A stretch of DNA of 64,000 bases from Arcobacter sp. CECT 8986 (lineage in GTDB: Bacteria > Campylobacterota > Campylobacteria > Campylobacterales > Arcobacteraceae), in contig NZ_PDKG01000004.1 of the NCBI RefSeq assembly GCF_004116725.1, positions 1 through 64,000 of the forward strand. Reading direction: 5' to 3'. The notes under the pieces were generated by a model that had not been told where the DNA came from, did no database searches, and saw only the letters and a program-made list of their open reading frames with translations. Positions 44,674-46,456 of this stretch are shown piece by piece. The translations under genes and the position numbers were made by a program. Each line of letters opens with the position of its first letter. Within the stretch, counting starts at the first letter, position 1.

Positions 44674-46227
44674 TTAAATTTGATGGTCATGCTTTGCAGC
44701 CAATCTTTCTTTTTGAGAAAGATAAGAGTTTAAAGCACCAATATAAGCTTTTGCTGTTGCTACCATTGTATCAACACTTAATCCATGTCCAACAAAAGAA
44801 GGTGAAGTTTCATCAAAAACAACTCTTGTAGTAACTTTTGCTAGCGCATCTTTTCCTTCTGTTACAGAAGTTACATTATAACTTTGTAACTCTCCACTAT
44901 ATCCTGTTAATCTATCGATTGTTTTAAAGATTGCATCCATTGTTCCATTACCAATATTTGCATCTGTTAATAATTCATCATTAAATTTAATTGATACAGC
45001 TGCTGTTGGCACACCATTTGAACAATCACTAATTTGTAAAGCATCTAATTCATAGATTTTATCTTGATTTAAAGACTCATCAGTAATTAACATTCTTACA
45101 TCATCATCTGTAACATCTTTTTTCTTATCTGCTAATACTTTGAATTTTTCAAATGCTGAATTTAACTCTTCATCACTTACTTTATCAAAACCTAATTGAG
45201 TGATTTTATCTCTAAATGCGGCTCTACCACTATGTTTTCCTAAAATTAATGTAGAATCTTTAATAACTCCAACATCTTCAGGTTTCATAATTTCATAAGT
45301 CTCTTGATGTTTCAATACACCATCTTGGTGAATTCCACTTTCATGAGAGAATGCATTTTTACCAACAATTGCTTTGTTTTGTTGTGGCTCAACACCTGTA
45401 ATAGTTGCAACTAATCTTGAAGTGGCATAAAGTTCTTTTGTGTTTATATTTGTATATAAATCACCAAAAGCATCTTTTCTTGTTTTAATAGCCATTACAG
45501 CCTCTTCTAAAGCAGAGTTTCCTGCTCTTTCACCTAATCCATTAATTGTAACTTCAATTTGTCTAGCACCACTTGCAACTGCTGCTAAAGTATTTGCTGT
45601 TGCTAATCCTAAGTCATTGTGATTATGTACTGAAATAATTGCTCTATCTCCTGCAAAATCACTTAACTCTTTAATCATTGCAGATAATTCTGTTGGTAAT
45701 CTATATCCCACTGTATCTGGTAAATTAATAGTAGTTGCACCTGCACCAATTACAGCATCCATTACCTCTTTCATAAAAGGAATTTCACTTCTTCCTGCAT
45801 CTTCTAAAGAAAACTCTACATCATCAACAAAAGTTTTTGCATATTCAACTGCTCTAATTGCTCTTTTGATTACTTCTTCTTCACTCATTTTTAATTTATA
45901 TTTCATATGAATTGGTGAAGTTGCAATAAATGTATGAATTCTTTTTAATCTTGCATTTTGTACTGCTAATCCAGCTTGTTTAATGTCATTTTCTACTGCT
46001 CTACTTAATGAACAGATTGATGATTTCTCAACTTCTTGTGCAATTCTACTTACTGCATCAAAATCTCCAGGGCTTGCTGCAGCAAATCCTGCTTCAATAA
46101 CATCAACACCTAATTTTTCTAACTGTCTAGCAACTTTAATCTTCTCTTCTGTGTTCATTGAACAACCAGGACTTTGTTCTCCATCTCTTAACGTAGTATC
46201 AAATACGTATATTCTATTTTTATCCAT
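44674..46227 (-). CDS. leuA: 2-isopropylmalate synthase
   Basis: This 517-residue enzyme of leucine synthesis condenses 2-oxoisovalerate and acetyl-CoA. The catalytic TIM barrel has [12 protein letters not shown] at the start, [16 protein letters not shown] and NGLGERAGN; a regulatory C-terminal domain (about 390-510) is complete, which in the family mediates leucine feedback. SD AGAGG is present. It is preceded by a leader peptide gene with four consecutive Leu codons and a consensus promoter. Confidence 0.97.
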
Positions 46228-46326: not shown

Positions 46327-46404
46327 TTAGAGTGATTTAGAAAGTAGAAGAAGAGTATTAACACTTTTTATAAAATGATTATTGTAGAAATCGAATATTT
46401 TCAT
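46327..46404 (-). CDS. Leucine leader peptide (leuL-like)
   Basis: This is a 25-codon frame on the minus strand: ATG at 46404-46402, stop TAA at 46329-46327. SD AAGGAG (46416-46411) is strong and well spaced. The peptide ends TLLLLSKSL, with codons 18-21 reading CTT CTT CTA CTT (46353-46342), all Leu, plus a fifth Leu as last residue. It sits between a consensus promoter and leuA, the classic layout of a leader whose translation senses charged tRNA-Leu. It is not related to its neighbours in any other way and is too short for ordinary gene finders. Confidence 0.8.
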   Translation of the reverse strand: MKIFDFYNNHFIKSVNTLLLLSKSL

Positions 46405-46427
46405 TTTCCTCTCCTTAGAATTGCCAA

Positions 46428-46456
46428 ATTATATTTTAAAAATACCAAATTGTCAA
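46428..46456 (-). promoter_or_regulatory. Consensus promoter of leuL-leuA
   Basis: On the minus strand TTGACA (46456-46451), a 17-nt spacer and TATAAT (46433-46428) match sigma-70 consensus completely. Transcription would begin near 46421, just ahead of the leader SD. Part of it lies only a few bases past the stop codon of the upstream kinase gene. Confidence 0.88.

Follow-up and report, generated by a model that had tools for sequence, protein, structure and literature searches.

The leuA gene of Arcobacter sp. CECT 8986 is preceded by a 25-codon open reading frame (ORF), leuL, which very probably acts as a ribosome-mediated, leucine-sensing leader of that gene. This assignment is supported by the conservation of the encoded peptide, of its run of leucine codons and of its position, by a strong bias of that run towards CTN codons, by a rare consensus promoter (P1) and by covariation of a helix within the leader RNA (H1); the response to leucine itself we infer from these features. 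The leader belongs to an element type already described in relatives (LeuL, 2013), to which the present analysis adds the helix between the leader's Shine-Dalgarno (SD) sequence and its Leu codons, a hairpin at the stop codon (H2), clade-specific terminators and a conserved -10 box before leuA. Coordinates refer to the window, the whole 64,000-nt stretch of DNA analysed, and the elements of the locus are as follows, with the basis of each in brackets.

46456-46428, minus strand: P1, the leuL promoter, with TTGACA at 46456-46451, a 17-nt spacer and TATAAT at 46433-46428 (12 of 12 consensus matches).
46416-46409, minus strand: SD sequence of the leader, AAGGAGAG, also the 5' arm of H1 (sequence; order-wide own-versus-cross pairing test).
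46404-46327, minus strand: leuL, 25-codon leader ORF MKIFDFYNNHFIKSVNTLLLLSKSL plus TAA (translation; codon-periodic conservation).
46355-46348, minus strand: CUCUUCUU, the 3' arm of H1, comprising the end of Thr17 plus Leu1 and Leu2 of the run (fold of the window leader; order-wide covariation).
46353-46342, minus strand: Leu codons 18-21, CTT CTT CTA CTT, the putative regulatory run (sequence; CTN bias).
46332-46330, minus strand: CTC, the last sense codon of leuL (codon counts; family leaders).
46327-46313, minus strand: H2, an A+U hairpin beginning within the leuL stop codon (covariation in relatives).
46283-46253, minus strand: U8 tract (46283-46276) and A-rich dyad ending in GATATAAT (46260-46253), candidate promoter P2 (alignment).
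46240-46235, minus strand: leuA SD sequence AAGAGG (sequence).
46227-44674, minus strand: leuA, ATG at 46227, encoding 2-isopropylmalate synthase of 517 aa, the putative regulated gene (ORF; full-length family homologues).

The initial annotation had placed a 25-codon frame with an SD sequence between a perfect TTGACA-N17-TATAAT promoter and leuA, and had pointed at four consecutive Leu codons and a U8 tract; all of these were recovered in the window as listed. The end of leuL and the start of leuA are 99 nt apart. LeuL-type leaders are ORFs of 20-35 aa with their own SD, directly 5' of leuA, and contain several C-terminal, preferably rare Leu codons; leuL comprises 25 aa, is preceded by AAGGAGAG and carries CTT CTT CTA CTT plus CTC. 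The run of codons for the regulated amino acid expected of an attenuator is represented by four consecutive, conserved Leu codons. Directly 5' of P1 (46460-50053) lie two consecutive ORFs of 859 and 334 aa, whose C-terminal halves are histidine-kinase-like and mutually similar, and P1 starts 4 bases past the stop codon of the second.

According to the main-text passages of the LeuL papers, the leader was named by Porcelli et al. in 2013 in Campylobacter jejuni, where it comprises 28 aa with five rare Leu codons and yields a short RNA ending shortly past the stop codon; orthologues are reported in most Epsilonproteobacteria with leucine genes (PMC3847290). The C. jejuni leader is supported by dRNA-seq and Ribo-seq (PMC3847290, PMC11955535), its start site being occupied in Ribo-seq data of 2025 (PMC11955535). 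Judged by these passages, leuL shares with LeuL of C. jejuni and other Epsilonproteobacteria the length range of 20-35 aa, the position directly before leuA, rare-codon Leu residues near the C-terminus and its own SD and promoter, and there is no difference that would exclude membership.

A LeuA match is present in 104 of 104 family genomes, and the upstream regions of 89 family loci and the window (90 in all) were examined for leaders. A leuL-type leader lies 5' of leuA at 73 of these 90 loci (window included), a Leu-rich leader of another type at four, and none was found by the set criteria at 13. Among the 13, L155 (same region as L024) has retained the KSVN block but its Leu run is degenerate, L164 yields a leader once the criteria are widened, and several of the remaining loci have leuA directly 3' of another gene. 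Several of the more distant family members without a leuL-type leader (L158-L162, L164-L166, L170, L171) have leuA a short way 3' of another gene, which may reflect loss of the leader when leuA joined another operon. Outside the family, 40 loci from 13 other families of the order were sampled, and 30 of them harbor a small ORF that follows an SD and has Leu codons towards its end (for one of these, L201, the frame is that picked in the H1 pairing test). The Leu leader is absent from five of five loci in family f15 (L203, L204, L205, L216, L219); most of them display a TTTTTTTCC(A/T)TTGA(C/A)A stretch 5' of leuA instead, which may represent a different arrangement of promoters. The distribution of leaders agrees with that in a set of 80 named records, which overlaps in part with the loci above.

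The leaders fall into three main peptide types, FIKSVN(T/S)LLLL in Arcobacteraceae, IFTKDSSLLLLL in Sulfurovum-type genomes and IKxxKxLPKIEIKNxLL (PKIEIKN type) in several other families; groups were defined via peptide pattern, not taxonomy, and leuA starts were also assigned via pattern. By tBLASTn, leuL was generally limited to C. jejuni or related Campylobacter, according to main-text passages of PMC11955535, and this narrow range fits the lack of similarity among the three types. Mean pairwise differences at codon positions 1/2/3 amount to 0.170/0.114/0.332 in Arcobacteraceae leaders (n=46) and 0.193/0.149/0.492 in PKIEIKN-type leaders (n=23). Because third codon positions differ most while the peptide stays, selection acts on the peptide, beyond the DNA alone. 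The proposal of a leucine leader in the initial annotation thus gains support from a conserved peptide and Leu run with drifting third positions, and its suggested check, that the Leu run should persist while the sequence drifts, holds in the family and in most of the order.

Alternatively, LeuL may function as a small protein, or as an arrest peptide acting from the nascent chain, with residues before the Leu run mattering in themselves. FIKSVN and LPKIEIKN are strongly conserved at the protein level with third positions free, as this reading predicts; however, the leader invariably lies before leuA, the three unrelated peptide types have the Leu run alone in common, and leader peptides may retain residues for ribosome pacing, so that we regard it as improbable. 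LPKIEIKN before the Leu run is nearly invariant with free third positions in several families (L187, L188, L193, L196, L198, L209, L212, L220 and others), which exceeds the need of a plain attenuator, and a nascent-chain role is therefore possible.

Codon choice sets the Leu run apart from the rest of the genome, in which Leu is encoded by TTA (59.6%), CTT (20.3%), CTA (11.2%), TTG (7.7%), CTG (0.9%) and CTC (0.3%). CTN codons make up 92% of the Leu run in family leaders compared with 33% of genomic Leu codons, and 92%, 99%, 93% and 87% in the four leader groups. CTC is the rarest genomic Leu codon, yet all 46 Arcobacteraceae leaders that are 25 aa long have it as the last sense codon. Across the window and a further 240 kb of this genome (contig C3), four consecutive Leu residues occur seven times in 91,267 codons, and leuL is the sole intergenic, SD-preceded small ORF with such a run; a search of the window together with 240 kb of the genome found no further leader peptides of this kind. 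We also considered whether leuL is a reading frame open merely by chance in A+T-rich intergenic DNA. This explanation, for which no favorable evidence was found, is refuted by the conservation of position, frame, Leu run and SD across most of the order, and its probability is negligible.

The promoter P1 is aligned in nearly all family members of the alignment. Sites of the form TTGACA-N16..18-TA[TC]A[AC]T are rare, with only four in 304 kb on both strands, P1 included, and none of 84 TATAAT boxes 5' of genes in the same genome has TTGACA at the right distance. A second promoter, P2, is probably formed by the T-tract/A-tract dyad ending in GATATAAT. This -10 box before the leuA SD is conserved at 86 of 95 family loci, and in position and form (a -10 box without TTGACA) P2 resembles the ordinary promoters of this genome. 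If active, P2 may provide leucine-independent basal leuA expression. The dyad, which displays compensating changes in a few relatives (L010, L027), was also considered as a terminator and rejected, as it is followed by the conserved GATATAAT instead of a U-tract.

Structure of the leader RNA was assessed locally and comparatively. The leader matches no RNA family in Rfam, and the weak downstream pairing noticed earlier is borne out by a whole-leader fold no more stable than shuffled sequences (z +0.43); local and comparative tests alone are therefore informative. In local folding of 64 non-redundant family sequences, stability peaks sharply at the stop codon of the leader (mean z -3.9), with lesser peaks at the leader SD/start codon region and at the dyad before leuA. 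In H1, the leader SD AAGGAGAG (46416-46409) pairs with CUCUUCUU (46355-46348). For each leader, we compared the duplex formed by its SD and its own Leu segment with duplexes between this SD and segments from other leaders. Own pairs are more stable than cross pairs (-10.74 versus -9.37 kcal/mol, 78 non-redundant leaders; 0 of 5000 permutations, such values being inexact probabilities because the sequences are related). The same holds within the Sulfurovum type (p 0.0006), the PKIEIKN type (p 0.046) and the other leaders (0 of 5000). Within Arcobacteraceae, where both arms are nearly invariant, H1 does not covary (p 0.47). Striking cases are L199, in which AGGAGGATAGA pairs with TCTATCCTCCT, and L201, in which AGGATAGAAG pairs with CTTCTATCCT. 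Randomisation of synonymous codons weakens SD pairing in every group, even with CTN codons kept; shuffling the leader's own codons does so in two groups only, Arcobacteraceae not among them. When the fold of the window leader is constrained by a ribosome on the Leu codons, mean SD pairing drops from 0.93 to 0.50.

The stop-codon hairpin H2 covaries in Arcobacteraceae (own -2.05, cross -0.85, n=48) and in the Sulfurovum type (own -0.78 versus cross -0.23), each with 0 of 5000 permutations, and is marginal in the window (-0.5 kcal/mol). Its stem and loop lengths vary, and an RNA hairpin therefore fits better than a protein-binding site. Neither the SD/Leu-codon helix nor the terminator difference between clades was found described in the literature searched (supplements and most subscription journals lying outside the search), and main-text passages of the LeuL papers PMC3847290 and PMC11955535 contain no mention of the stop-codon hairpin or P2.

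The leaders were scanned for T-tracts preceded by short, G+C-containing hairpins. Intrinsic terminators after the leader were found in none of 52 Arcobacteraceae leaders (0.6 expected), in none of 23 PKIEIKN-type leaders (0.4 expected) and in 15 of 24 Sulfurovum-type leaders (2.1 expected). Like leaders are hence followed by a terminator in the Sulfurovum-type clade and not in Arcobacteraceae. Several Sulfurovum-type loci (L036, L041, L042, L044, L053, L055, L056, L071, L072, L191, L222) display a conserved TCTAAT...ATTAGA hairpin with varying inner stem, then a short covarying terminator-like hairpin, then leuA. In classic attenuation, a ribosome stalled at the Leu codons would favor an antiterminator over an intrinsic terminator, a G+C hairpin with U-tract, between leuL and leuA. 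The Sulfurovum-type hairpins and the U8 tract of the window agree with such a switch, whereas no terminator was found in the family, in PKIEIKN-type leaders or between leuL and leuA in the window, where no G+C hairpin precedes the U8 tract; although H1 and H2 covary, no competing terminator was seen in Arcobacteraceae. Classic attenuation is hence an unlikely mechanism for this leader.

In the actinobacterial LEU element, a Leu-codon run pairs with the leuA SD, a pseudoknot is present and there is no clear terminator (PMC1262725). A switch of this style, in which ribosome-free Leu codons sequester the leuA SD and stalling releases it, would find some basis in the window: AAGAGG could pair briefly with the Leu codons, G-U pairs included, and some long-range pairs reach the leuA SD region in the minimum-energy fold of 46420-46228. 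Pairing of the Leu codons with the leuA SD nevertheless gives no own-versus-cross signal, overall (p 0.80) or in any group (p >0.4), and we consider such translational control highly unlikely. Pairing of a Leu-codon run with an SD before leuA and the lack of a clear terminator are common to both systems; the partner is the leuA SD in the actinobacterial element and the leader's own SD here.

The initial annotation had left the mechanism undecided between classic attenuation and a translation- or Rho-dependent variant, a caution justified by the missing terminators, and because of these (0 of 52 family leaders) we favor the Rho-type variant. Rho-dependent termination is the most likely switch in Arcobacteraceae, with roughly even chances of being correct, Rho and the termination site both being deduced. 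The genome encodes rho (Rho_N match, E 1.3e-15). Within the leader, C is most abundant and G scarcest in the Leu-codon segment (C 0.30, G 0.04), a composition confounded with CTN choice; since C-richness largely stems from the CTN codons, the segment alone cannot count as a Rho site.

In the mechanism that we propose, P1 would yield the leader RNA and a ribosome would translate LeuL. With ample Leu-tRNA, the ribosome would pass the Leu codons and complete LeuL; the freed Leu codons could then pair with the leader's own SD, and H1 would block re-initiation, leaving the G-poor downstream RNA bare for Rho to terminate transcription before leuA. When Leu-tRNA runs short, the ribosome would stall on the rare CTN codons and shield the region, allowing polymerase to reach leuA. 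H1 would thus silence the leader after a finished round and be weakened while a ribosome occupies the Leu codons. P2 would supply basal leuA expression; if it is active, leuA would in part escape control by the leader. As a whole, the model in which the Leu codons double as an anti-Shine-Dalgarno sequence, the leader shuts itself off at ample leucine and Rho ends transcription, with the Sulfurovum-type clade using a hairpin terminator for the same regulator, is put forward tentatively.

The attenuators of the enterobacterial leu, trp and his operons rely on a leader peptide rich in the regulated amino acid, with ribosome stalling as the sensor. leuL is a leader of the same type, but neither an intrinsic terminator nor an antiterminator was found in Arcobacteraceae. 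The E. coli tnaC leader is a Rho-dependent ORF that senses free tryptophan through its nascent chain. leuL shares with it a leader ORF and the absence of an intrinsic terminator, and a stalled ribosome would likewise block Rho, if Rho acts here as proposed; in contrast to tnaC, the signal would be a lack of charged Leu-tRNA. Rho-dependent leader regulation of the tnaC kind is cited as a parallel in PMC1262725.

A mechanism for LeuL has been proposed in the literature, and no dissection of it in Campylobacterota was found within the search described above. The SD/Leu-codon helix and the clade difference in terminators are concrete, testable parts of such a mechanism, and the order-wide alignments extend the published LeuL set. 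Most Campylobacterales with leuA probably sense leucine via one small translated leader.
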